Part shown: piece by piece, positions 7,152 through 39,090 of the stretch
Numbering within the stretch: the first letter of the stretch is position 1
Layout of the letters: the number at the start of each line of letters is the position of its first letter
Source of the DNA: Deltaproteobacteria bacterium
GTDB taxonomy: Bacteria > SAR324 > NAC60-12
Assembly (NCBI GenBank): GCA_002683785.1
Contig: NYUB01000015.1
Coordinates: 11,107 to 53,324, forward strand
Length of the DNA: 42,218 nt
Reading direction: 5' to 3'
Notes under the pieces: model-generated
What the model saw: only the letters and a program-made list of their open reading frames with translations
What the model was told of the DNA's origin: nothing
The model's database searches: none
Made by a program: the position numbers and the translations under genes

Positions 7152-10100
7152 ATGAGTCACCCCCTTCCTTCAACAAATCTGACCCTAAACAACCGGATCC
7201 GTTTTGTAACTGCGACCAGCTTGTTTGACGGTCATGACGCTGCGATCAACATCATGCGCCGGATTCTGCAGTCGATGGGTGCAGAAGTGATCCATCTCGG
7301 TCATGACCGAGGGGTCGAAGAGATTGTCGAAGTTGCTATTCAGGAAGATGTTCAGGGGATCGCCGTCAGTTCCTACCAGGGGGGACACAATGAGTTTTTC
7401 CGTTACATGATCGATCTGCTCCTTGAAAAGAAATCAGGACACATCCGGGTTTTTGGAGGCGGGGGCGGGGTGATCATCCCCAGGGAAATCGAGGAATTGA
7501 TGGATTACGGCGTATGCCGCATCTACTCCCCGGACGATGGACGGGAGATGGGCCTCGAAGGAATGATTGCGGACATGCTCAAGAAATCTGATTTCAGCCT
7601 GACTGGAGGGGATGAAAAACCTGATCCCTCCCTTTTTAATCCCGGAAATTCTCCAGCATTGGCCCGTGCCCTGACCTGGATCGAACAGACAGAAAATTCA
7701 GATCTGGTTTCAAGTTTTGTCGAGGGACTTCCGCAAAATTCCAATCCACCGGTCATTGGACTGACTGGTACTGGAGGAGCCGGCAAATCCTGTCTGATTG
7801 ACGAACTGGTGAGGAGATTCATCCAGGAATTCCCTGAACGCCGGATCGCAGTTGTTTCCGTGGACCCCTCGAAACGCAAAACCGGGGGAGCTCTGCTTGG
7901 GGACCGTATGCGGATGAACGCGATCCATCACCCCCATGTTTACATGCGTTCTTTGGCCACCCGCCGTTCCCATCTGGCCACTTCTGAATCCCTGCTGCCT
8001 ATTCTGAGGCTGCTGAAAGCCTCATCCTTTGACCTGATCCTTGTTGAAACAGCAGGGATTGGACAAAGCGACACCGAAATCACCGATCTTGCTGATCTCA
8101 GTGTCTATGTCATGACCCCGGAGTATGGTGCCTCGACTCAGCTCGAGAAGATCGACATGATTGATTTTGCTGACTGCATCGTCATCAACAAGTTTGATAA
8201 ACCTGGAGCGGAAGACGCATTCGATGCGGTTCGTAAACAGTACCGAAGAAGCCACCGGAAATTTGACGACCCACCAGAAAGCCTCCCGGTTTTTGGAATT
8301 GTTGCGAACCGCTTCAACGACAACGGCACCAATTGGTTCTATTACCGGATGCTGGAGTTGCTGAAAGAAAAAAACCTTATTGACTGGGAAAGGGATTTCA
8401 ATGCCTCCCATGCGATTTCACAAACCCATGAACTGATACCTGCTTCTAGAAAAAACTACCTGAGGCAAATTTCAGAAACCGTTCGAATCTATAAAACCGA
8501 AGTAAAAAAACATTCAGAACAAGCCAGGGAACTGGATCAACTACTCGGAACGATCTCACAACTTTGCGGAAACAATGAAACCGTCCAAAAAAAACTGAAA
8601 AGCCATCTCGAACCTTTGGATGATGAACACTTCGATGAGGAAGCCCTTCCTGTAGTCCAGCTTTACAATAAAAAACTTGCCTCCCTGCCCCAGACGGTTT
8701 TGCAGCAAATTGAAGCTTTTTCAGAAAAACGTGAACTCTACCTGAAAGAAAGCTTCCAGTACCAGGTTAGGCAGAAAACAATTGAGGTTCAAAACCAAAT
8801 CAAAAGCCTTAGTGGGCTGATGATCCCAAAAGTTGCCGTTCCACGCTATGAGGATCTTGGAGAAATCACACGCTGGCTTGGCTTGGAAAATTTCCCAGGT
8901 GAGTTCCCCTACACCGCTGGAATCTTCCCCTTCAAACGGGAGCAGGAGGATCCAACCCGGATGTTTGCCGGAGAAGGCATAGCAGAACGAACCAATCGTC
9001 GTTTTCACATGCTTGCCAAAGGACAGCCTGCCACACGGCTGAGCACCGCATTCGACTCGGTGACACTTTATGGTTCGGATCCTCATCCTCGTCCCGACAT
9101 CTACGGAAAAGTGGGCAATGCAGGAGTTTCGGTCTGCACCGTCGATGATGCCAAACGCCTCTATTCTGGATTTGACCTCTGTACCTCGAACACCTCGGTC
9201 TCGATGACCATCAACGGTCCTGCTCCAACCGTTCTTGCATTTTTTCTCAACTCTGCTGTGGACCAACAGGTGGAGAAACACCTTCGTGAAACCGGAAAAC
9301 TCGAAGGAATTCGGAAAGAGATGGAGCAGCGCTATGGCGCCATGGATTTGAAACTTCCTGGATACCGTATGAATCTTCCGGAAACTCATCAGGGGCTTGG
9401 GCTGGGCATGCTGGGCATTTCAGGAAGCGAAGCCATGGATCCGGAAACCTATGGACGCATCCGAGAACAAACTCTGCGTTCCGTCCGGGGTACTGTTCAA
9501 GCAGACATCCTGAAAGAGGACCAGGCTCAGAACACCTGCATCTTCAGTACAGAATTTGCTCTAAGGATGATGGGAGACATCCAGGCATTTTTCACCGAAC
9601 ACGAGGTGAAGAATTTCTATTCCGTCAGCATCAGTGGCTATCACATCGCCGAAGCTGGAGCCAACCCGATCACCCAGGTCGCATTTACCCTCGCCAATGG
9701 TTTCACCATCATCGAATACTATCTCGCACGAGGACTTCCGATCGATGGTTTCGCACGCAATCTGAGTTATTTCTTCAGCAACGGAATGGATCCCGAATAT
9801 GCAGTCATTGGCCGCGTTGCACGGCGTATTTTTGCAGTGGCCATGCGTGATCTCTATAAAGCCTCGGAAAGCTCTTGCAAACTGAAATACCACATCCAGA
9901 CTTCAGGTCGTTCACTTCATGCGATGGAAATCGACTTCAATGACATCCGAACCACCCTCCAGGCCCTTTATGCGGTATACGACAACTGCAATTCACTGCA
10001 TACCAACGCCTACGACGAAGCAATCACCACGCCCACGGAAGAATCAGTGCGCCGTGCATTGGCGATCCAGTTGATCATCAACCATGAACTGGGTCAGGCC

Positions 10101-10586
10101 TTCAACCAGAATCCGCTTCAGGGAAGCTTCTTCATCGAAGAGCTGACCGTACTAGTTGAAGAGGCCATCCTCAGCGAGTTCATCCGTCTTTCTGATCGAG
10201 GCGGGGTTCTCGGAGCGATGGAAACCATGTATCAAAGAAACAAGATCCAGGAGGAATCCCTGCATTATGAAACGCTGAAGCACACAGGGGAAATGCCGAT
10301 CATGGGCGTCAACACCTTCCTCAATCCCCATCCCAGGGAAGAAATAGAAGAAATCCAACTGGCCCGATCCACCGACGATGAAAAAAAGATGCAGATCTCA
10401 GACTTGGATCTCTTTCACCGTTACCATGAGGCGGAACAGGAGCCCGCATTGGGGAAACTACGAGAAGCAGTATTAAAAAACGAAAACACCTTTGAGGCAC
10501 TGATGGATTGTGCAAGGGTTTGTTCCCTAGGCCAGGTGACTCGAGAACTTTATGGCCTGGGCGGGCAGTACCGCCGGAATATGTGA
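7152..10586 (+). CDS. icmF: Fused isobutyryl-CoA mutase (B12-binding domain + MeaI-type GTPase + mutase domain)
   Basis: 1144 aa; [37 protein letters not shown]12 domain, [22 protein letters not shown]-loop, mutase domain with IcmF-type [24 protein letters not shown] and [26 protein letters not shown]. Confidence 0.92.
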
Positions 10587-25573: not shown

Positions 25574-28462
25574 TTAGAGTAGTCCTTTTGTTTCAAGACT
25601 TAACTGCTCCTGCAAACTGAATTGTTTGAAACGGGGAAGCAGTTTATCCCAATCGATGATGTGTGCATCAAACTCTGGACCGTCCACACAAGCGTGTTTA
25701 CGGATCAGTTTCTCTTCCTGCTGAATAGGCACCATGCAGGCACCACACATACCCGTAGCATCAATCATCACGGAGTTGAGGCTGGCAACTGTCTTGACGC
25801 CGAAAGGACGGGTCAGTTCACTGACTGCTCGCATCATTAGAGGAGGCCCGATCGCAACCACTTCTCCAACCCTTGGACCACTCCCAGCCTTGGCCTGCTT
25901 GAGCATTGATTGAAGGGGTTGTGTGACCAGTCCGTGAATGCCAAAACTTCCGTCATCACTGGTATAGATCACCTCAAGGTTTGGAAAGTCCGATTGCAGA
26001 CGATCGAGACGCTGTCCCGGTTGATGCCAGAAACACTGTTTCACGTTTCGGAATCCGGAAATCAATACCATCTGGTTGCCCAGTTCCAGATGTTCCTTAA
26101 GGATCGGAAGCACTGGAGGCAGTCCCACTCCACCTGCAGTAAACACAACACACTCCCCCTCTTGATAACGTTCGATCAGGCTTGGCCGTCCCAGAGGACC
26201 AGCAATTCCAGCAAAGGACTGCCCAGGTAATAGACTATTCATGAGCTTGGTGCTCGTACCCACGCCCTGAATGACAAGGTCGATGCTCCCTTGACGGACA
26301 TCCCAGTCAGCCAGGGTGAGTGGGATGAATTCTCCATCCGGATTCAAAAGGACTCGAACAAACTGTCCCGCGACTGCGGCTCGGGCGATCAGGGGTGCAT
26401 GAACACGGAACTCGACAATGCCCTCTGCCAACTCGGTCTTTTCCAGAATTTTCGAAGGTGATTGGGCTTGTTCTGTGTAGGCTTTTGCCTTTTCAACGCG
26501 CATCTGGACTTCATTTCGCTTATCAGCTACACCCGCGATGATTTTACGGGCAGCATTCTGCCCGTCCCCTGCAGCCTTAATCGCAGTAGAACCACCCCGC
26601 GCAGCATCACCTCCGCTGTAGACATTACGGACCGACGTCTTCTGCGATGCTTCATCGACCTCAATCGTGCCCCAGCGGGTCGTTTTCAGTTCCGGCTCCG
26701 CATCCTTGACGATCGGATTTGGGCTGTTGCCGAGGGCCATGATGGCCAAATGGACTGGTATGGTTTCTGTTTTCCCGGTGGCCACCGGCCTGCGCCTACC
26801 GGATGCGTCGGGCTCACCAAGTTCCATCACATCGAGAACCGCCTCACGAACAAAATGGCTTTTGGAACTGCCGATGAATTCCTTAGGGGTACGCAGATAT
26901 TTTACTTGGATACCCTCTTCCAGGGCATGCTCCAACTCCTCCCGGCGCACAGGCATTTCTTCCCGAGTACGTCGGTAGACGATGGTCACTTTTCCACCCA
27001 GACGGAGCGCCGTCCTGGCAGCATCCATTGCGGTATTGCCACCACCGATTACGATTACCTGCTTGCCCCGGGTTTCCGGAAGTGGTGTTTCATGATCCTC
27101 CTGATTGGCTTGCATCAAGTTGACGCGGGTCAGGAATTCATTGGCGGACATCACACCAAGCAGGTGTTCGCCATGAACATTGAGAAATCGCGGCAGCCCC
27201 GCACCGGTACCAACGAAAATCTTCCAAAACCCGGCTTCTTTCAATTGATCCAGGGTTGCCGTCTTACCTGCAATGAAATTCTTCACGAACTGTCCACCTC
27301 GTCCACGGATCTGTTCCACCACATTGTCAATGAGGCGGTTTGGCAGTCGGAACTCTGGAATCCCATAACGTAGGACTCCGCCGAGTTCATGAAAGGCTTC
27401 AAAGACCGTGACCGGATAACCAGCGTCGAGCAACAGAAAGGCATTGATCAGCCCGGCCGGACCGGAACCAATCACCGCCACCGGAGGTTTTTCTGCTTTG
27501 ATCCATGGATCCAGATGATTGCCGTTGGCATCAATGACCATCTCTTTTGCACGCAGTCCTTCGCTTTCAGGAAGGAACCATTCAATTTGTCCAATTTCAA
27601 TCGGTAGGATGCTAGTACAGACACCTTGGCATTGGATTTCCTGCGGGCAGACTCGGCCGGTGACATTCGGGAGCGGGTTAGCCGACTGCATCAGTTCAAA
27701 GGCTTCCTGGAAGCGCCCTTCACCAATCAGACGCAGCATTTCCGGAATGTGAATCTTGACAGGACAGCCTCCCTCGTTTTCTGGCTGTCCTTCCCGGATG
27801 AGTCCGATTTCGCAGGGCCGGTCGTCACACTGCTTGTCACGCAGCACCTCCAGCCATACCAGCAGTTCCACTTCCCGGAAACTGTAACCAAGTCCCATGT
27901 ATCCCAGATAGCCCTGGTTGACGAGATCGAAATCGGCGGATCGTTCTGCGGCCGGACGGATGTAGGGAGGAATGTAGTTTTCTCCGGGCCAGTTTTTCGA
28001 AAGCCCCTGGAACATCGGATAACGGTCCGAGAAATGAGCATCCAGGGCCCGAATCCATCGCCGTTTGAACTTGAGCGGGATGTCCCAGACGAAACGCAGC
28101 AGGATTTTGCTCATCTCGTTATCCCGAAGCAGCAGTTTCCAGAAGGTTTCCGTGAATTCCAAACTCAATTCCTCCTGTTTGAATTCCCAGGCCACCGCCT
28201 GCATCCCCTCCTCCATGAAGATCTGCTGAAAGGCTTCGGGATTGTTCAGCAGCCGCCTTTTGAGCAGGTCAAGCTGTCGGTGGAAGAGGTGGACTGATTC
28301 CGATTCTTCCAGTTCCTGTAGTTCGCATGCGGCGTTCTCCAGCAACCGTTCCCCCTCCCGTTGATGCTTGTCAGCCAAACGGTAACGCTGCAGATCATCA
28401 AGATCTGTCCCGGCTTCCTCTTGCATTTTGCTTCCAGCAAAGCTGTTGGCCTGATGTTCCAT
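25574..28462 (-). CDS. Fused GltD/NfnB(SudA)-like and NfnA(SudB)-like NAD(P)H:ferredoxin oxidoreductase with N-terminal extension
   Basis: GltD-like: CPVKIHIPEMLRLIGEGRFQEAFELMQSANPLPNVTGRVCPQEIQCQGVC, VAVIGSGPAGLINAFLLLDAGYPVTVFEA, VIGGGNTAMDAARTALRLGGKVTIVYRR; C-terminal FNR/[2Fe-2S]: GMCGACMVPIQQ...ACVDGPEFDAHIIDWDKLL; start 28462 has AGGAGG, track start 28516. Confidence 0.85.
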   Translation of the reverse strand: MEHQANSFAGSKMQEEAGTDLDDLQRYRLADKHQREGERLLENAACELQELEESESVHLFHRQLDLLKRRLLNNPEAFQQIFMEEGMQAVAWEFKQEELSLEFTETFWKLLLRDNEMSKILLRFVWDIPLKFKRRWIRALDAHFSDRYPMFQGLSKNWPGENYIPPYIRPAAERSADFDLVNQGYLGYMGLGYSFREVELLVWLEVLRDKQCDDRPCEIGLIREGQPENEGGCPVKIHIPEMLRLIGEGRFQEAFELMQSANPLPNVTGRVCPQEIQCQGVCTSILPIEIGQIEWFLPESEGLRAKEMVIDANGNHLDPWIKAEKPPVAVIGSGPAGLINAFLLLDAGYPVTVFEAFHELGGVLRYGIPEFRLPNRLIDNVVEQIRGRGGQFVKNFIAGKTATLDQLKEAGFWKIFVGTGAGLPRFLNVHGEHLLGVMSANEFLTRVNLMQANQEDHETPLPETRGKQVIVIGGGNTAMDAARTALRLGGKVTIVYRRTREEMPVRREELEHALEEGIQVKYLRTPKEFIGSSKSHFVREAVLDVMELGEPDASGRRRPVATGKTETIPVHLAIMALGNSPNPIVKDAEPELKTTRWGTIEVDEASQKTSVRNVYSGGDAARGGSTAIKAAGDGQNAARKIIAGVADKRNEVQMRVEKAKAYTEQAQSPSKILEKTELAEGIVEFRVHAPLIARAAVAGQFVRVLLNPDGEFIPLTLADWDVRQGSIDLVIQGVGTSTKLMNSLLPGQSFAGIAGPLGRPSLIERYQEGECVVFTAGGVGLPPVLPILKEHLELGNQMVLISGFRNVKQCFWHQPGQRLDRLQSDFPNLEVIYTSDDGSFGIHGLVTQPLQSMLKQAKAGSGPRVGEVVAIGPPLMMRAVSELTRPFGVKTVASLNSVMIDATGMCGACMVPIQQEEKLIRKHACVDGPEFDAHIIDWDKLLPRFKQFSLQEQLSLETKGLL

Positions 28463-28519
28463 GGGTCCTCCTGATTCTTTATGGGCTATTCCGCTGTCCC
28501 GGGGTTCCTCCTTCATGGG

Positions 28520-31500
28520 TCATTGACGGGGCTGGAAACGGATAATTTCAGAATCACAATCCGCAACTGCTCTCTCGGTCTTGGCCAGCAGCTCAGGGGT
28601 GATTTCGAGGTCATCCAGCACCCCAGGAATCACACGAGCCACTTCCTTGGCAACGCCATCGACAAGAATGGTCGTAGTCTCAAATAACTCTCCTGCATCC
28701 TGGTAACATGATTTGCAGTTGCTGCAGAGGGGCATATCCTCCTCGGTGATACTGACCCAGGGGCCCGCCTTAGCAGACGCCGGAACTGTTTCCTGCAACG
28801 TCTCCGGCGTGGAAACCATGCTATTCATAAGACCATCTGCCATGCCGGAAGAAGAGGGCATGCGCGAAGACGCGGCCAGTTCCGACATTCCTTTGGCAAT
28901 CGTATCAAGATTCTTTTCATGACGGTTCATCAACCCCTGGTAGCGTTCCTTCCACTCCTGAAGCTCAACTCGGTGGGATTTTTCCATTTCCCGAACCGGT
29001 TGACCGCTGAGGAATCGCAGCATTTGCCAGTTACGCAGACGTTCTTCAGTCAGTCCGATGACCGCATCCGAGACCAGTAGACGGATCAGATGCTTGTCTT
29101 CGTCTACCGACCAGATGAAAGGTATTTGGTAACTCCGTTCTCCAGCTGACAACTGAAGGTATTCCACAACAGGAATCAGGTCTTCCTCTCCGGAAGTACT
29201 CTTAAAGTGTTTGCGGAATCGCCCTTCCGTGGCAGCAAAATCGGCTGGTGTGAGTGGAATTTCCTTCAGTGCGGTGTTGCCGTCCTGGTCTATGTATTCG
29301 ATGTTGATCCGGGTCCAGTCCTCGGTCGGATCAGGGTTGCCTTCCAGGGTAAATCGTTTCCCCAGACTTTCTCCGCCATCCGGGTCGTGTATAAAAACCG
29401 GATTCATGCGGCTTTCCACAGCTAGACGTGCCTGGCGACTGGCCGCTGCGTCAGCAATGCCGTGTTCGGCCTGGCATGGAGTATAGACGTCCATCAACGC
29501 AGGATGAGCCTCGGTGCCCAGCATCAGGTTGACGCAACGCAGAAAATGCCCCATCAACCCGGCCGATGTCTGCATCACCAGTACCCTCGGATGGAATGCG
29601 GCGATCAATCCGAGTTCCTTCCGTCTTTCCTGCTTGCCTGACTGAGCACGTCCAAATCGGCTGAGGTCTGAATCCTGAGCCATGTAGCTTGCCGTAGAAG
29701 CCTGTCCTCCGGTGTTGGAATAGGTTCCGGAATTGAGGACGACCACCTTAACCGGTGTACTGGTGGAAAGAAGACGTGAAAGTGCACCGAAACCGATGTC
29801 ATAGGTGGCTCCGTCACCGCCCAGATCAATCACGGCAGGCTGCAGGGCCAGTTCCTTTCCACTGAAATCAGACCAACTGAAATATTTGAAATATTCATCA
29901 TGGACTTTTTCGTCATAGCTGTCCTGCAATTCAAGCGCTGCGATACGTAGTGCTTTGATTTCCTCAGTATTGGTGGCACTCAGACCTTCGAAGATACCTT
30001 TGGCCAACGGAGCACTATCCTGGAAGAGGCTATTCACCCAGGGATCGGTGTAGGGATTGAAGGGAAAGGTCGATCCATAGACACTGCTGCAACCAGTCGC
30101 ATTGGCGAAAACCGAGGATGCCGGGCCGTGACCGGTCGGTCCGCTTTCAAACTGGTAAAGACGCCGATCGAGAACCGTCATCGTGCGTTTGATCCGTTCC
30201 AGCCTGGATCCCTGCTCCTTAACATTCTCCAGTTTCAAAATCTTATCACGCAGCTTTTCAGTGAGGCCTTCCAGTTGACGGGCATGTTCCAGGTAATGCT
30301 GGCGGCGCATCGCCCGATTGGCCGAGGTGATCAGTCTGATCGCAGTCACTTCTCCGCACCCCCGGCAGGCTCCGTGCCCCCCCGTCATAGCGTAATAGTT
30401 GTCTCTTTCGAGCATCAGCCGCTTGCTGTCGCCCCCGGGTTTGAGAGCATCCTTGATGAAACGTGCCGGGGAATCAGGAAGTTTGCTCAGAAAGCGAAAA
30501 TTGTGACGCATTTCCTGCAGTCGCTCACGTTCTTCAGGCTGTTTCACAAGGGCTCCGGGACCACAGACATCCACACATTCCATGCAGCCTGTACATTTCC
30601 AAGGATCGATGACGACTGAGTAAAGCGCACCACTACCTGGATTTTTCTGCTCCATGGCATCGTAAAAACTTCGAGTCCTAGCCAGAGGAAAGGCGTTCAA
30701 ACGGGCCAAAGCCTCGCGTAACTGGTTCCTTGCCTGAGGTTGAAGCCCTTCCAATTGGTCCAGGGCCCTCGCCGATGCTTCAGTAAATCCAATAATGGAT
30801 TCGGAGTTCCTGAACTCGTCCCGGATTCCCTGGGTCAATGGAAGCAGAAAACGATGCAGGTTTTCTCGCTGTCTCTCACTAAGCTTGATGGCTTCCAGGG
30901 AGGCATTTAGCGAGTCATGGATTTCATGCAATGAATTCGGAATCGCTGCATCGGGACAGATGAGGGTGCATTCCAGGCAGCCCGTACAGAGGTCAGGATC
31001 AAACTCCGGAACTGAAAGCCGAAAAAGCCCTTTGTCTTTCCAGGATGCACTTCCGGAAGGCATGAATAGCCCAATCCCCGGCAATACGGGTGATTCATCA
31101 ATGCTGCCGTCTTTGAATGGTTTGGCTACCGAAGCATTGAAGTAATCGGTATCCCCCAGACCCTGATAATCTGCGGAATGCCCATGGATTCCCATGTTCG
31201 CCGACACCTCGAGACCCGACGCCTTTGATTCTCCAGCAGGTGGTTTCCATTCTAAATAATTCTGCTTTAAGTAGTCGACTTCACGTGTGGATTCCATTCC
31301 CTCTTCAAGGACACGCATATTGCTTTCAACAACTTCAGGCCCCTTAGCCCCAAATTTTTTTTCCACTTGCTGTTGTATCTTGTCCAACAAGGCCTCTCGA
31401 CTTACACCTTGACGGATACGTACGTCATGGGCGCAAAGTGCACCGATGAAAACCACGCCCATCATCCGAATCTGCAGATCCGGAGAAGGGGCATGCCTGC

Positions 31501-33631
31501 GTGCGACTCCAAAGGCGTCAACGATCAGAAAATGGATTCTCCGTTCCAGAAGAGTTCTGCGGGCCTGATCCGGTAATTCTTCCCAAACCTCTTGAGGGCT
31601 CTGTCCGGATTGCATGATGTACGTCCCTCCTGGAACCAAACCGTTGAGTGGGTTGGTGTGTTCAAAAACCTTATGATCTGGCGAAATGACGATTTCCACT
31701 TCCTCAAGCTGGGCATTGGTGATTTTCACCGGTTCTGGACTGAGCGTGAGGTAGAAATTAGTCGGAGCCCCACTTTTTTCCGAACCATACTTGGGTGCCG
31801 ATTTAGAATGCAGGCCCAATACGGCTGCCAGGATATCGGTAAGCAGTTTTCCGCTGGCAATCGTTCCGTACCCTCCGACGGAATGGAACCTTACCCGCAG
31901 GGCCTCCTTCGGCAGCAGGTGAGGATTGTCACCGGTTTCCAGGGTCATCGAAACGGTCTCAGGATAAGCCTTTTTCAACTGCTCCTGAATGACGGACATT
32001 TCAGGAGATGCTCCGTCTGTGAAAAACCTCGAGCCAAGGTAAAAGAAGGGAACATTTCGGCCACTGATCATGTTCTCGAATGCTGCCACCAGATGCCTCG
32101 GTTGGAGATCATGCCCGCCGAGACCAAAAATTCCGGTGTTCACCAAAGGGAACTCGGCCAGTCCGGGAATCCCCGGATGACGTTTCGCTCTGTGATTCTC
32201 AACACCTCGGTAGAGGGCCTGATTGACAAGCTGGGTGAGGGCGGTCGTTCCGGAACGTTCCAGAACCGTCACCGCCTTTTTCCCTTGAAGCACGTGGACA
32301 ATGTCTGCTTCCGGGAAGGGATGAAATAATTTCACAGAAACCACCCCGACACGATGCCCCTGCCGGCGAAGGTAGGAAGCCACCGCTTCAGCATCATCCG
32401 TCACTGAACCCATTCCCAGCAACACCCATTCTGCATCATCTGTCCAGGCCGTTTGCACAGGGCGGTATTCCCGTCCCGTCAGAGCCGTGTATTCCTTCAT
32501 TGCCTGAACCACAAAACGTGGGACTTCACTGGCAAAGTGGGTGATGTGATCCGCAATGCCGGCCTGGAAATCCGGTTGATTCTGGACCCCCCCTGTGAGC
32601 CCCGGACTGTGGGGGTCAACCAGGGCCGGCACTCGCTGTCGGCTTCCTTTGCGATGAGCATGGATCCATTGACGTTTCCAGTTACCCTGAAGTTCCAGCG
32701 GTACCCATTGAAGGGTCGTTTCCAGGAGCGTTTCTTCAGAATCTTGCTCCAGCTGAAGTTCATTCTCCCCAAGAAAGATATTCAACTCTTTGAAAGCGAG
32801 TGCTTCGAATTCCAAGGAATGATGCTCCAGGAAATGTTTCAACTGCCAGAATCTACCTCGCGCACCAAACAGGATTTCCTGCGCTACTGAAGGACACTGG
32901 ATACGGTCTCTCGGATCTCCGAGGAAGTGTTTTAACATTTCCGGTTCCGGCAAACGGACTTCACTCTGCATATGGCTGGTTGAAAATCCATCCATGGCAT
33001 TCGCAGCAGGAATCAGCGCGAGGGTACTGCTGCGGTAAGCAATTGCAGCCAAATCCGCAGCTTCCTGGGGATTGCTTCCAAAAAGGATTGTATAGCCCGA
33101 AGGTAGCAGGGCATAGACATCGTCATGACCTGCCATTACGTTCAGGGAGTTTCGTGACACGACCCTCGCCGCGATCTGGAGCACAAAACCGCCAATTTTC
33201 TTCCCTGCCGTGACGAAATGGGATTCTAGCCCATAGAGAATTCCCTGGCTTGAAGAAGCATTGGAAATGTATTTCCCACCGGTTAGTGCCGCTCCCATGG
33301 CTCCGCTCTGGGCCGAATGCTCTCCTTCCGGTTCAAAGAAAAAAGGACGGCGTCCCCAGACATTGATTCCTCCGGAAGCCCGGTAAGCTTCAAAAATTTC
33401 TGAAATTTCCGTTGATGGAGTGATTGGGTAGCCGATCACTCCGTCACAGACCTGTTCCATCACATGAGCTACGGCACCATTGCCATGCATCACCGCTTCG
33501 ATACCGGGGAAGGGCACTTCTACTTCCAAATTCTGGTTCGCGGGCGCTTTGGGTTTTTTACTTGTGACGGATTTCTTTTTTGGACGATTGACAGTCCGCC
33601 GATCCGGTGCAGTGACTTCAGCTTCATTCAT
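28520..33631 (-). CDS. Expanded pyruvate/2-oxoacid:ferredoxin (flavodoxin) oxidoreductase, fused alpha-gamma-ferredoxin-beta
   Basis: GYPITPSTEISEIFEAY; gamma domain VRFHSVGGYGTIASGKLL; CTGCLECTLICP and CTGCMECVDVCG; GHGACRGCGE; GGDGATYDIGFGALSRLL...NSGTYSNTGGQAS; ATG 33631 with GGAGG 8 nt upstream preferred over GTG 33703. Confidence 0.88.
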   Translation of the reverse strand: MNEAEVTAPDRRTVNRPKKKSVTSKKPKAPANQNLEVEVPFPGIEAVMHGNGAVAHVMEQVCDGVIGYPITPSTEISEIFEAYRASGGINVWGRRPFFFEPEGEHSAQSGAMGAALTGGKYISNASSSQGILYGLESHFVTAGKKIGGFVLQIAARVVSRNSLNVMAGHDDVYALLPSGYTILFGSNPQEAADLAAIAYRSSTLALIPAANAMDGFSTSHMQSEVRLPEPEMLKHFLGDPRDRIQCPSVAQEILFGARGRFWQLKHFLEHHSLEFEALAFKELNIFLGENELQLEQDSEETLLETTLQWVPLELQGNWKRQWIHAHRKGSRQRVPALVDPHSPGLTGGVQNQPDFQAGIADHITHFASEVPRFVVQAMKEYTALTGREYRPVQTAWTDDAEWVLLGMGSVTDDAEAVASYLRRQGHRVGVVSVKLFHPFPEADIVHVLQGKKAVTVLERSGTTALTQLVNQALYRGVENHRAKRHPGIPGLAEFPLVNTGIFGLGGHDLQPRHLVAAFENMISGRNVPFFYLGSRFFTDGASPEMSVIQEQLKKAYPETVSMTLETGDNPHLLPKEALRVRFHSVGGYGTIASGKLLTDILAAVLGLHSKSAPKYGSEKSGAPTNFYLTLSPEPVKITNAQLEEVEIVISPDHKVFEHTNPLNGLVPGGTYIMQSGQSPQEVWEELPDQARRTLLERRIHFLIVDAFGVARRHAPSPDLQIRMMGVVFIGALCAHDVRIRQGVSREALLDKIQQQVEKKFGAKGPEVVESNMRVLEEGMESTREVDYLKQNYLEWKPPAGESKASGLEVSANMGIHGHSADYQGLGDTDYFNASVAKPFKDGSIDESPVLPGIGLFMPSGSASWKDKGLFRLSVPEFDPDLCTGCLECTLICPDAAIPNSLHEIHDSLNASLEAIKLSERQRENLHRFLLPLTQGIRDEFRNSESIIGFTEASARALDQLEGLQPQARNQLREALARLNAFPLARTRSFYDAMEQKNPGSGALYSVVIDPWKCTGCMECVDVCGPGALVKQPEERERLQEMRHNFRFLSKLPDSPARFIKDALKPGGDSKRLMLERDNYYAMTGGHGACRGCGEVTAIRLITSANRAMRRQHYLEHARQLEGLTEKLRDKILKLENVKEQGSRLERIKRTMTVLDRRLYQFESGPTGHGPASSVFANATGCSSVYGSTFPFNPYTDPWVNSLFQDSAPLAKGIFEGLSATNTEEIKALRIAALELQDSYDEKVHDEYFKYFSWSDFSGKELALQPAVIDLGGDGATYDIGFGALSRLLSTSTPVKVVVLNSGTYSNTGGQASTASYMAQDSDLSRFGRAQSGKQERRKELGLIAAFHPRVLVMQTSAGLMGHFLRCVNLMLGTEAHPALMDVYTPCQAEHGIADAAASRQARLAVESRMNPVFIHDPDGGESLGKRFTLEGNPDPTEDWTRINIEYIDQDGNTALKEIPLTPADFAATEGRFRKHFKSTSGEEDLIPVVEYLQLSAGERSYQIPFIWSVDEDKHLIRLLVSDAVIGLTEERLRNWQMLRFLSGQPVREMEKSHRVELQEWKERYQGLMNRHEKNLDTIAKGMSELAASSRMPSSSGMADGLMNSMVSTPETLQETVPASAKAGPWVSITEEDMPLCSNCKSCYQDAGELFETTTILVDGVAKEVARVIPGVLDDLEITPELLAKTERAVADCDSEIIRFQPRQ

Positions 33632-33728
33632 GGAAAGGGCCTCCAGTGCTTTGAGGAAGGTGTGGAGTCCTGTCGGAAGGAGAAACCTCCGTTTCGTCAG
33701 CACTCTTGACCTAACAAAAGGAAACTAG

Positions 33729-33898: not shown

Positions 33899-36800
33899 TC
33901 AGTTGCTCAGGGAAACGGTCATGTCAACCGTTTCGACAATGAAAAGCAAGTCTCCTACATTAACGGTCTGGCGATCTTCTGCAATCACCCGGGTGACACG
34001 GTAGTGTTGATTCTGGGGATAAATCATCTGCCCGTCACCACTCTTGAAATGGGCCAGATTGATTTCTGAAAAGACCTTCATTGATTCCAGCAGGCATATC
34101 GGATGATCGATATCAATCACCTGTCCTTCACGTACAAAGGGTTCCTCTTCCGGTGAAGGACTCAAATAAAAGCCTCCCATCTGGGGTGAAATCACCTTGA
34201 TTTCATTCGTTTCCTCTACAACCAGTTCTTCTTGGCTCAAGCCATTGCCAGAATCACCAGAATCATTTTCGACTCGGGATTTCAATTCATTGGCATCAAT
34301 TCGTTTAAGAAATTCTTTCAGAAAACCGGTATCGAAACGTCCTTTGAGAAAATTCTGGTCGTCAAGGATCATGCGACTCAGAGCAAGATTGGTCGAAATC
34401 CCCTCAAGCCGGACACGTCCCAGGTAATCCAACATTCTAGCACAGGCTTCCTTTCTGGAGGAACCCCAGCAGATGATCTGTGCAATCATGCTGTCATAGT
34501 AGGGCGGCACCAAAGAACCCTCTTCCACAGAACTGATAACACGCACATGTGTTTCTTCAGGAAAATGCACCTCACCCACATAACCAGGTTCAGGAATAAA
34601 ACTCAGGCTTCCATCATCCTGAACCTCGACCCGTTCCGCATTGACACGTACTTCTATCGCATGACCGTCAAATCTGACTGGTAGTTGAGCGATGCTTTTG
34701 CCTTGGGCAACAAGAAACTGCTGCTGTACGAGGTCCACTTGGGAGACCATTTCACTCACAGGGTGCTCGACCTGGAGGCGTGTATTCATTTCCATAAAAT
34801 AAACCTGTTTTCCTTTCAGGTCGTATATGAATTCCACTGTTCCTGCACCAACGTAATTGATGTGGTTGATCAATTCCAAAGCGTAATCAAACAGGATTTT
34901 CTGGGTCTTTTTGGGAATATTGAAAACCGATTCTTCAATCAGTTTCTGGTAATCACGCTGAACTGAGCAATCACGAATCCCCAGAAGTTTGGAATTGCCT
35001 TTGATATCACGAAGAACCTGAACTTCTAGATGGCGCATGGAAGTGATAAATTTTTCAAGATAGAGGTCTCCGTTACCGAATGCACTCAAAGCCTCTTGGG
35101 ACATCCTGCTGAATGTTGAAGGAAACCAGTCCGGGTCTTCGACAACTCCGATACCTTTTCCCCCGCCTCCATGTGCTGCTTTGATCAGAACTGGGAAACC
35201 AATTTCCTGTGCAACACTTGCAGCATGAACCGGATCGGTGAGAGCGCCCTCACTTCCTGGAACAACCGGAATATTAAGGCTTTTGGCGGTAGCAATCGCA
35301 TTGGATTTATTCCCCATGCGGTCCATGTTCTCTGCACGAGGACCAATGAAATTAAAACCATGTTCGCGGCAGATACGTGCATATCTAGGGGATTCGGAAA
35401 GGAATCCTATCCCAGGATGAATAGCATCCACTTCCTCCTGTTCTGCGACTCGGATCACACTCATAGCGTTGAGGTAGCTTTCCTGTGGAGTATCTCCCCC
35501 GATGCAGACCAGACGATCATCCTCACCAAGTTGCTTGACAGGTTTGCTTTCCATATCCGGATCAGAGGCAACCAGTATCGTCTGCAATCCTGCTTCTCTT
35601 GCTCCCTGGATCAACCTTGCTGCGGTACAACCCCGGGCATGGATCAGTACTTTGTTGATGTTCTTGGGTCGGAATTTGTCACTACGACTCAGACGTTGGA
35701 CATGCTCCTGAATTGAAAGCCGGTATTCTCCAGCAAGGATCCTGGCAATAACATCCTTTACCTGATGCTGGGCCGTCGGAATTTGAGGATCGATCTCTTT
35801 CAAACGTTCATCCAGATTGTCATCAAACGGATTGGCCACAAGCCCGTCCATGGCCTCATTGTTCGAGGAGAGATAATTGGACAGGGTCGCATGGGCGGGC
35901 AGGTGACTTTCCACCACAAGCTGTCCAGCAAAGGGCATTTGTGTCCCTGAAAGGTAATAGGTACGAACCAGCAGGTGAGTCATGAAACTGGCCTGGGCCC
36001 CTCCGGTGCAATCACGGAATCCGAAACAGATCACTGGCAAATCAAAGTCTTTAATGAAACGAGTCAGTCTGTCATTGATGATTGACATTGAAAACAATGA
36101 ACCCGCCCCCTCTTTGGTCTGCATTCCTGCTGAGGAAACAAACATGATTACCGGAAGTTTCATCCGGGCACATTCATCCAGCAACCTGCATACCTTATCA
36201 CAGCTGGCCATGTCAAAAGCCCCTGCCTGAAATTCAGTATTGCTCACCACTAGACCCACTCGGTATCTCGGATTGCTTCCCGAAATTGTTTCTAAAGAAT
36301 CCGAAGTGGATTGGATTGTGTCTTTTGATCCATTTTCATTTGTCTTGGGAAGGTCCTCTTTAGAAATTTCAAAATGAGCAAGTCCTGTGATCACTCCGCA
36401 GGGCATCCCTCCATTAGACAAAGCACGTTCGATGGCATCTCTAAAACCAGGGAACTGTAAAGGATTGGAAGTGATTCGATCGCCATAGAGTTCTTGAAAA
36501 CCAGTAAAGAATTGATCAATGACCTTGGCTGGGCTAATTGGGTTTCTTTTGTATTCACGAAGCAGATTTTGAATCAACAGGTCCTTGTAGGCCTGATCCA
36601 GTCGATTCCAGAAATCCTTGATACCAATGTTTCGAGGAGTGATCTTCCCGTCAAAACGCCCCTTGCCTTGTTGATCGGTATATAAAGAAGGAAGGAGACC
36701 GGAAAAAAAGTAACGGACTACACCAAACAAGGGAGGACTCATCCTTGGAAACACAACCCTCTTCCAGGTGCTGATGGTGCCCATCACTTCATCACAGTCT

Positions 36801-38536
36801 TTTCGTTCGATGAAACGAACCAACCATTTGAAAAAATGATCTCGAAGCCATTCACTTTCAAATTTGACCGAGCTTTTTTCAAATTCCTTGAGTGCACCGT
36901 CGAAGGCGACCTCAAATAAGTTTTCTACAGATTCCTTTGAAATACGGTTGTTTCCTTTCAATTCTCCCGCAATCCTAGGCAAAGAATCGATCAATTGATT
37001 GTATAATAAGTCGAAGAGGATTATGTTCTGATGGTTTTCAAAGAACACTGGTTGAATTTCAGGGTTTTGCAAAAGATCGAGCAGAACGAGATTTCCAGGA
37101 GGAAGTTCATGTATCTCGTTGCGTTGGAGATGTTCGAAGAGCTCGATCAGGTTTTCTCCGGCATTGTCCTTCCAATGATTGTAGAGATAGATCAGGATTT
37201 CGGTGACAAGGTCTACAATCGATTTTTGATAGTTTTCACGCGGATCTCCCATGAAAAAACGGGTGAATTTGCTCCGTTCCTTGTCTCTGGCATCGTTTGC
37301 AGCCAGAAATGCTTCGAACCGTTTGAAAAGCTTTTCGTTGTAACGAATCTCAAGGGTTGAGGAAACCCAACGTTTAAAATTTTCACGGCGTTCTTCCTCA
37401 CGCCTTTGATGCAAACGCCCCACCGGCGTTTTCCGGGGGCTGAGCCTTGAGTACTGATGAATCGTACGGCTACTGATACGCTGGCGCATTCTAAGAAAAC
37501 GCATAAACCGGTAAACATCACCGAAGATGTTGAGGGTCCCCGTCGGTGGACGATCCGTCAGCCGATTGCTTTCAATCAAAAGTTCCGATGGATCTAGATA
37601 GTGTTCGATGCTGTCACGATAATGCTGAAAGAAAAAATCATGTTCCTTGAGGAAACTCACTGCATCCATCTCCACACTCTCAATACCTGTGATGATGGCA
37701 CGTGCGAGGTTTTTGAGTTGATGAGGTTGGTCGTAGCTGTAGTCGATCACACCATCGAAGTACCCCCGTGATTGCAATTCATAAGCTGACACCCCAATGT
37801 ATTTGGCTGATTCCTGCCAGGAGAGATTGTATTTGCGTGCTATGTTGCTCAGGCCCTTAGGATGAATGGTGTTGAACACACCTTCTCTAACGGAAAGTAG
37901 TAAGTTTGCTGTCGCCAAAGGAATCGCTCCTCCGCTGTAACCTCCTCCAAAGACCACTCCCACCACAGGTAGTTGTAAATTTGCCATCTCGGAAATGAAA
38001 AAGGAGATGCTGTGGGACTGGTTCTGGAGATTTGCCTCGGCATCTGCAGCAGCACCAGGAGTGTCCATAAACGTCACCAAAGGCATCGCGTGGGAGGCGT
38101 AAAATCGCACCATTTCTGCTGCTCTTCGATGATGCTTGGGATACCAAACTCCATTTTGCGATTTATGATTTTGGGCAATGAAACCGAGTCTGCGCTGAAG
38201 CCCGCCAATATCAAACTCACATTCTGCCATGTAAAGAGGCCCTTCGGATTCTTCAAAAATGATTTTTGAGCCAAGTTGTCTGATAACTTCTGGAGAACTA
38301 GGACGCTTTTGGGTCTCAGACGGGGTAATGACACGATGAATGTACCCGTCCACATCCAGTTTTTTGAGCAATTTGATCTGAGCTGCAATATCTTTTGAGG
38401 TCAGCAGGCCTTCTACACCGGACTGATCAAAAATGGCAGATTTCTTTCCATTCTGGAGGGCGAGGTCATGAGACATCGTCTCCGCAGCATGAAAAGCACT
38501 TTGATAGTTCTGGCTACGTTTCCTCGTGTTACTCAT
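33899..38536 (-). CDS. Single-chain biotin-dependent acyl-CoA (acetyl/propionyl-CoA) carboxylase: AccA-like + linker + AccD-like + AccC + AccB domains
   Basis: 1545 aa; LVTFMDTPGAAADAEANLQNQSHSI and GGGYSGGAIPLA (AccA-like); IMFVSSAGMQTKEGAGSLFSM and GFRDCTGGAQASF (AccD-like); VLIHARGC...KAAHGGGGKGIGVV...YFMEMNTRLQVEHPVSEM (BC); LLESMKVFSEI biotinyl site (Lys codon 34076-34078). Confidence 0.9.
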   Translation of the reverse strand: MSNTRKRSQNYQSAFHAAETMSHDLALQNGKKSAIFDQSGVEGLLTSKDIAAQIKLLKKLDVDGYIHRVITPSETQKRPSSPEVIRQLGSKIIFEESEGPLYMAECEFDIGGLQRRLGFIAQNHKSQNGVWYPKHHRRAAEMVRFYASHAMPLVTFMDTPGAAADAEANLQNQSHSISFFISEMANLQLPVVGVVFGGGYSGGAIPLATANLLLSVREGVFNTIHPKGLSNIARKYNLSWQESAKYIGVSAYELQSRGYFDGVIDYSYDQPHQLKNLARAIITGIESVEMDAVSFLKEHDFFFQHYRDSIEHYLDPSELLIESNRLTDRPPTGTLNIFGDVYRFMRFLRMRQRISSRTIHQYSRLSPRKTPVGRLHQRREEERRENFKRWVSSTLEIRYNEKLFKRFEAFLAANDARDKERSKFTRFFMGDPRENYQKSIVDLVTEILIYLYNHWKDNAGENLIELFEHLQRNEIHELPPGNLVLLDLLQNPEIQPVFFENHQNIILFDLLYNQLIDSLPRIAGELKGNNRISKESVENLFEVAFDGALKEFEKSSVKFESEWLRDHFFKWLVRFIERKDCDEVMGTISTWKRVVFPRMSPPLFGVVRYFFSGLLPSLYTDQQGKGRFDGKITPRNIGIKDFWNRLDQAYKDLLIQNLLREYKRNPISPAKVIDQFFTGFQELYGDRITSNPLQFPGFRDAIERALSNGGMPCGVITGLAHFEISKEDLPKTNENGSKDTIQSTSDSLETISGSNPRYRVGLVVSNTEFQAGAFDMASCDKVCRLLDECARMKLPVIMFVSSAGMQTKEGAGSLFSMSIINDRLTRFIKDFDLPVICFGFRDCTGGAQASFMTHLLVRTYYLSGTQMPFAGQLVVESHLPAHATLSNYLSSNNEAMDGLVANPFDDNLDERLKEIDPQIPTAQHQVKDVIARILAGEYRLSIQEHVQRLSRSDKFRPKNINKVLIHARGCTAARLIQGAREAGLQTILVASDPDMESKPVKQLGEDDRLVCIGGDTPQESYLNAMSVIRVAEQEEVDAIHPGIGFLSESPRYARICREHGFNFIGPRAENMDRMGNKSNAIATAKSLNIPVVPGSEGALTDPVHAASVAQEIGFPVLIKAAHGGGGKGIGVVEDPDWFPSTFSRMSQEALSAFGNGDLYLEKFITSMRHLEVQVLRDIKGNSKLLGIRDCSVQRDYQKLIEESVFNIPKKTQKILFDYALELINHINYVGAGTVEFIYDLKGKQVYFMEMNTRLQVEHPVSEMVSQVDLVQQQFLVAQGKSIAQLPVRFDGHAIEVRVNAERVEVQDDGSLSFIPEPGYVGEVHFPEETHVRVISSVEEGSLVPPYYDSMIAQIICWGSSRKEACARMLDYLGRVRLEGISTNLALSRMILDDQNFLKGRFDTGFLKEFLKRIDANELKSRVENDSGDSGNGLSQEELVVEETNEIKVISPQMGGFYLSPSPEEEPFVREGQVIDIDHPICLLESMKVFSEINLAHFKSGDGQMIYPQNQHYRVTRVIAEDRQTVNVGDLLFIVETVDMTVSLSN

Positions 38537-38604: not shown

Positions 38605-39090
38605 ATGCCTAAACAGCCTGTTTTCATCCATTCCAGCCTGATGGAGCAGTTGGTCCAAGAGGCCCGTATCTCCAAGCGACAAAGGATGAATTACAATTTT
38701 CATCAGCTTGAGGACGCTGCGAACCGGATGCTGAATGCCATCGAACCTGAAAGTTATATACAGCCCCATCGTCATGTCGAACCACCACGTGATGAAGCCT
38801 TCCTGGTATTGCGAGGTCGTGGAGCGATCCTCCTTTTCAATGATGACGGAGTTGTGAAGCATGGTTTCCTGCTTGATTCCGCTAGTGAAAACCTTGGCTT
38901 GGACATTCCTGCCGGTTGGTATCACACCATCGTCTCCCTTGAACGTGGAAGTGTTTTTTACGAAGTCAAAGCTGGTCCTTACGAGCCCACGAAAGCCAAA
39001 GAGTTTGCTACTTGGGCTCCTCCAGAAAATGCTCTAGAGGCTCCTGCCTACCTTGAGAAACTAAAAAAAATGGCCTCACGATTTTATTGA
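38605..39090 (+). CDS. WbuC family cupin fold protein
   Basis: NYNFHQLEDAANRMLNAIEPESYIQPHRHVEPPRDEAFLVLRGRGAILLFND; PAGWYHTIVSLERGSVFYEVKAGPY. Confidence 0.85.
   Translation: MPKQPVFIHSSLMEQLVQEARISKRQRMNYNFHQLEDAANRMLNAIEPESYIQPHRHVEPPRDEAFLVLRGRGAILLFNDDGVVKHGFLLDSASENLGLDIPAGWYHTIVSLERGSVFYEVKAGPYEPTKAKEFATWAPPENALEAPAYLEKLKKMASRFY

Follow-up and report, generated by a model that had tools for sequence, protein, structure and literature searches.

A single-chain carboxylase of a SAR324 bacterium as a probable orthologue of the Shewanella acetyl-CoA carboxylase AccS/AccADCB

In a window of 42,218 nucleotides (the whole stretch of SAR324 DNA analysed here), a single open reading frame carries all four carboxylase functions and very probably encodes, judging from sequence comparison, the SAR324 orthologue of Shewanella oneidensis AccS/AccADCB, which would be the only acetyl-CoA carboxylase to supply fatty-acid synthesis. 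Acetyl-CoA carboxylase is the first enzyme of that pathway. The architecture of the protein is already known; its occurrence in SAR324 and in other phyla is new.

The gene begins with ATG, contains zero internal stops, and lies on the minus strand (Table 1). A first-pass annotation, which left the strand unstated, had placed all four functions in one 1545-aa frame with the carboxyltransferase (CT) halves first, and this layout is borne out by Pfam, by NCBIfam and by the uninterrupted frame; the motifs that it quoted (FMDTPGA, GGYSGGAI, DCTGGAQASF, and ESMKVFSEI) are all present. The chain runs CT-alpha, a helical domain of ~400 aa, CT-beta, biotin carboxylase (BC), and biotin carboxyl carrier protein (BCCP). 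The domain search that had been proposed as a check identifies the N-terminal region as a carboxyltransferase (ACCA, 2.6e-28). The BC domain is matched by Biotin_carb_N, CPSase_L_D2, and Biotin_carb_C, and the C-terminal carrier domain by Biotin_lipoyl (residues 1448-1493) and by the NCBIfam BCCP model (2.4e-12). In the same Pfam search of the 1545-aa protein, the Carboxyl_trans match is weak and the CT-beta half receives no clear assignment, being too diverged for one; the NCBIfam accD model does match it (4.3e-9, residues 743-877). In direct comparisons, E. coli AccC is 42% identical to the BC domain, and the two CT halves are strongly diverged from their E. coli counterparts (AccA, 26% identity, 3e-20; AccD, 24% identity, E 1e-5).

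Table 1. Features of the SAR324 carboxylase gene, with positions in the window.
Feature	Position	Strand	Basis
accS/accADCB-type single-chain acetyl-CoA carboxylase (probable), 1545 aa	33899..38536	-	uninterrupted ORF, collinear with PDB 9kkm (1440 bits)
CT-alpha (AccA-like) core, residues 122-276; FMDTPGA and GGYSGGAI	37709..38173	-	Pfam ACCA, E. coli AccA match
Central all-helical domain, residues ~271-676	36509..37726	-	AlphaFold model; without Pfam family; PDB match 9kkm
CT-beta (AccD-like) domain, residues ~677-936, without zinc ribbon	35729..36508	-	accD model, E. coli AccD match
Biotin carboxylase domain, residues 960-1407	34316..35659	-	Pfam, E. coli AccC match, catalytic residues kept
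Biotin carboxyl carrier domain, residues ~1440-1537	33926..34219	-	Pfam Biotin_lipoyl, NCBIfam BCCP
Predicted biotinyl lysine K1487 in LESMKVF	34076..34078	-	E-[SA]-M-K across family alignment

Residue conservation was scored over 53 family sequences. The CT-alpha segments D158-A162 and S201-A204 and the CT-beta motifs GMxTKEG and GGAQA are invariant (53/53 in each case). The BC domain retains, also without exception, the equivalents of E. coli AccC K116, K159, H209, Q233, K238, E276, E288, N290, R292, Q294, V295, E296, and R338. The sole tested BC position that differs is H236, an ATP-side residue in the E. coli enzyme, which is Y1196 in the SAR324 protein; nearly the whole family has Y, N, or Q at this position, Y and N being the most frequent. 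The biotinyl lysine motif E-[SA]-M-K is found in 52 of the sequences, the remaining one having a gap there, and K1487 of the SAR324 protein sits in ESMK. The protein has the four functional units and the active-site motifs of E. coli AccA, AccB, AccC, and AccD, but on one chain instead of four and with a helical insert. It was also correctly noticed at the outset that the AccD-like part lacks a zinc ribbon: E. coli-type AccD has an N-terminal four-cysteine ribbon, whereas a CxxC...CxxC pattern within residues 560-955 is found in 0/53 family members.

The best match in the PDB is 9kkm/9w4a, “Acetyl-CoA carboxylase multifunctional enzyme AccADCB” (1517 aa, 1440 bits), with which the SAR324 protein is collinear from residue 10 to 1537. 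The title of 9kkm, released on 2025-11-19, describes a cryo-EM acetyl-CoA carboxyltransferase holoenzyme dimer from Shewanella oneidensis; a literature search on the codes 9KKM and 9W4A found no structure paper. We assign the entry to this species from its title, from the 1517-aa length of SO_0840, and from its near-identity to Shewanella-type DNA on the plasmid pOXA436. An AlphaFold2 model of residues 1-955, built from 34 natural sequences (pLDDT 80.7, pTM 0.79), has two alpha/beta halves on either side of the all-helical stretch. Structure prediction had been suggested as a further check, and the predicted CT and helical module folds like 9kkm, the top Foldseek match (4.5e-74, TM 0.79 by query). 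The helical stretch has no match to a Pfam family, and a 361-aa portion of it finds 9kkm as the sole credible PDB chain (6.8e-65). Because the match to 9kkm runs from end to end, including this orphan domain, and is also the top fold match, we regard the two proteins as orthologous.

The first-pass annotation implied that the domain order was new, and had itself named prior characterization as what would overturn its proposal. The same order is in fact published and structurally solved in Shewanella AccS/AccADCB, and a new architecture was therefore rejected. In S. oneidensis, SO_0840 (AccS) is a 1517-aa protein listed for AccA, AccB, AccC, and AccD, with no other protein entered under the A, C, and D functions (PMC4793157). 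Two natively biotinylated proteins have been seen in this organism, and AccS is one of them (PMC10470608; PMC11602165); when AccS is in short supply, growth is restored by E. coli accA, accD, and accBC together (PMC11602165). That its domain order is unlike that of eukaryotic ACC was already remarked in 2024 (PMC11602165). The SAR324 protein shares with AccS the domain order, the length (1545 vs 1517 aa), the helical domain, the catalytic motifs, and full collinearity, but the CT part is only ~44% identical and the host is not a gamma-proteobacterium. Furthermore, Shewanella accS has a divergent LysR-type regulator gene, accR; no such gene lies beside the SAR324 carboxylase gene, where a WbuC-family cupin gene stands instead (window 38605-39090, plus strand), divergent from the carboxylase in a position common to some other SAR324 genomes. 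The AccR neighbour is regulatory context and does not define the enzyme. A scan for promoters and terminators gave no more than chance.

It should be mentioned that accS adjoins blaOXA-48-like genes on Shewanella chromosomes (PMC3480492), and that a piece of it has been carried with blaOXA-436 onto the Enterobacter plasmid pOXA436, a conjugative IncHI2A plasmid. Here a Shewanella-type accS fragment lies beside blaOXA-436 (L109:12001-14709), and two compared fragments are 97.5-99.5% identical to 9kkm. The PLSDB table for this plasmid lists no accS gene, and a predicted cmlA5 resistance gene overlaps part of the fragment.

Eukaryotic and actinobacterial homodimeric ACC follow the order BC-BCCP-central-CT, with the AccD-like half first. 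By its Pfam and NCBIfam domain order, the SAR324 chain does not: CT comes first, with the AccA-like half leading, so that the inversion of the CT halves relative to the eukaryotic type stands as originally described. Like SACE_4237 and other homodimeric enzymes, the SAR324 protein carries every function on a single chain and has a middle region that is not catalytic (PMC6491548), but this region differs from theirs, credibly matching no PDB chain except 9kkm. The first-pass annotation had taken BC-BCCP-CT as the rule for single-chain enzymes; for bacteria this is incomplete, because long-chain acyl-CoA carboxylases have been described as single chains with CT N-terminal to BC-BCCP (PMC6491548). 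The SAR324 protein resembles these in being a bacterial single chain with CT ahead of BC-BCCP. Their CT is not known to carry such an inserted helical domain; PDB 5fif, a CT domain from a bacterial carboxylase of the single-chain kind, comes only at rank 26 in the fold search with ~250 aligned columns. A mention of “accADCB” in Berkiella (PMC9803151) was considered as the same fusion and set aside, since the wording there more probably enumerates four genes.

We surveyed 34 SAR324 genomes of the same order (families f1 and f2) and five of the same class outside it (f3 and f4). A search for the fusion and for separate acc genes, as had been recommended, recovers the fusion in 32 of the 34, where it is the sole ACCA match at 1e-15, and no separate AccD or AccB reaches the curated cut-off in these 34 genomes. 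All five genomes outside the order have canonical separate AccA, AccD, and AccB, and none has the fused carboxylase. Because the source genome is 87% complete, the missing subunits are judged mainly from the 34-genome pattern; a BirA gene is present in the source genome. The closest named relative of the protein is from SAR324 cluster bacterium lautmerah10 (90%). AccS homologues have been stated to be confined to Shewanella and a few gamma-proteobacterial genera (PMC11602165); this range is contradicted by copies in SAR324, in Acidobacteriota (18/396 genomes sampled), and in the Verrucomicrobia group, with 6/388 genomes in the phylum of the Lentisphaerae record and further copies in records titled Verrucomicrobia and Kiritimatiellae. 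Full-length copies occur in all four of these non-SAR324 groups, and in ten non-SAR324 genomes with the fusion it is the sole ACCA match at 1e-12. In a tree of the CT part, the SAR324 sequences form a set of their own (100/100), apart from those of the Acidobacteriota, the Verrucomicrobia group, and the Shewanella type; the exact place of the last is unsure because their branch is long.

Could the protein instead carboxylate propionyl-CoA, a long-chain or another acyl-CoA, with acetyl-CoA being carboxylated elsewhere? Single-chain long-chain acyl-CoA carboxylases do exist in bacteria (PMC6491548), and the source genome has other carboxylase parts, namely two CTs (540 and 569 aa) and two BC-like proteins (714 and 957 aa). 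Those CTs, however, are of the full Carboxyl_trans type, as in propionyl- and methylcrotonyl-CoA carboxylases, and fall far under the AccD cut-off, whereas the order has no AccA/AccD-type enzyme besides the fusion, whose orthologue serves S. oneidensis as acetyl-CoA carboxylase; we thus consider another main substrate improbable. Since CT identity is only ~44%, substrate preference in SAR324 could still differ from that in Shewanella. The possibility that neighbouring acc genes were joined artificially during assembly or annotation, a conceivable worry in a 173-contig draft, was rejected as extremely improbable, given that dozens of assemblies made independently, and spanning several phyla, contain fused frames of ~1450-1650 codons with the orphan domain and that the same fusion is seen by cryo-EM.

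For the preferred reading, that of an AccS-type acetyl-CoA carboxylase, activity, substrate, oligomeric state, and a swinging-carrier cycle in SAR324 can be proposed by analogy. By homology to the solved enzyme, K1487 would be biotinylated by the BirA of the genome. The BC domain would carboxylate biotin using ATP and bicarbonate, as in established biotin-carboxylase chemistry, and the carrier would then swing to the CT site, which the AccA-like and AccD-like halves form between them. The lineage-specific helical domain presumably keeps these halves together and shapes the dimer. Acetyl-CoA would thereby be converted to malonyl-CoA, which would enter type II fatty-acid synthesis, the fused gene replacing separate accA, accB, accC, and accD in this SAR324 order.

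Several other genes were observed. A 1727-aa pyruvate/2-oxoacid:ferredoxin oxidoreductase-like protein (28520-33703, minus strand; POR_N, POR, PFOR_II, and Fer4 domains) is longer than ordinary PFOR and far under the curated PFOR cut-off; among the carboxylase loci compared, it adjoins the carboxylase only in a same-genus genome. Directly downstream of it is a 980-aa bifunctional glutamate-synthase-beta-like/FAD-NAD flavoprotein (25574-28516, minus strand; PRK12779, above cut-off), possibly its electron partner. A fused isobutyryl-CoA mutase/GTPase IcmF, above its curated cut-off, is encoded at 7152-10586 (plus strand). The 957-aa protein, on contig 11 of the source genome (L003:724-3597), has a diverged biotin carboxylase with inserts and a C-terminal biotinyl-type LLEVMKMF, and no CT was recognized in it; many genomes of the order have BCCP-matching frames of 920-991 aa that may be the same protein.

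With about even confidence, we suggest that the AccS-type carboxylase arose long ago as a fused alternative to the four-subunit enzyme. It would have become fixed in one SAR324 order and, through descent or horizontal transfer, would have come to be scattered among the Acidobacteriota, the Verrucomicrobia/Kiritimatiellae/Lentisphaerae, and the gamma-proteobacteria, with its own helical scaffold doing what an unrelated central domain does in eukaryotic ACC. With the wider family, the 9KKM structure can be interpreted against a diverse alignment. Metagenome searches for separate accA, accB, accC, and accD could wrongly call such organisms unable to start fatty-acid synthesis.
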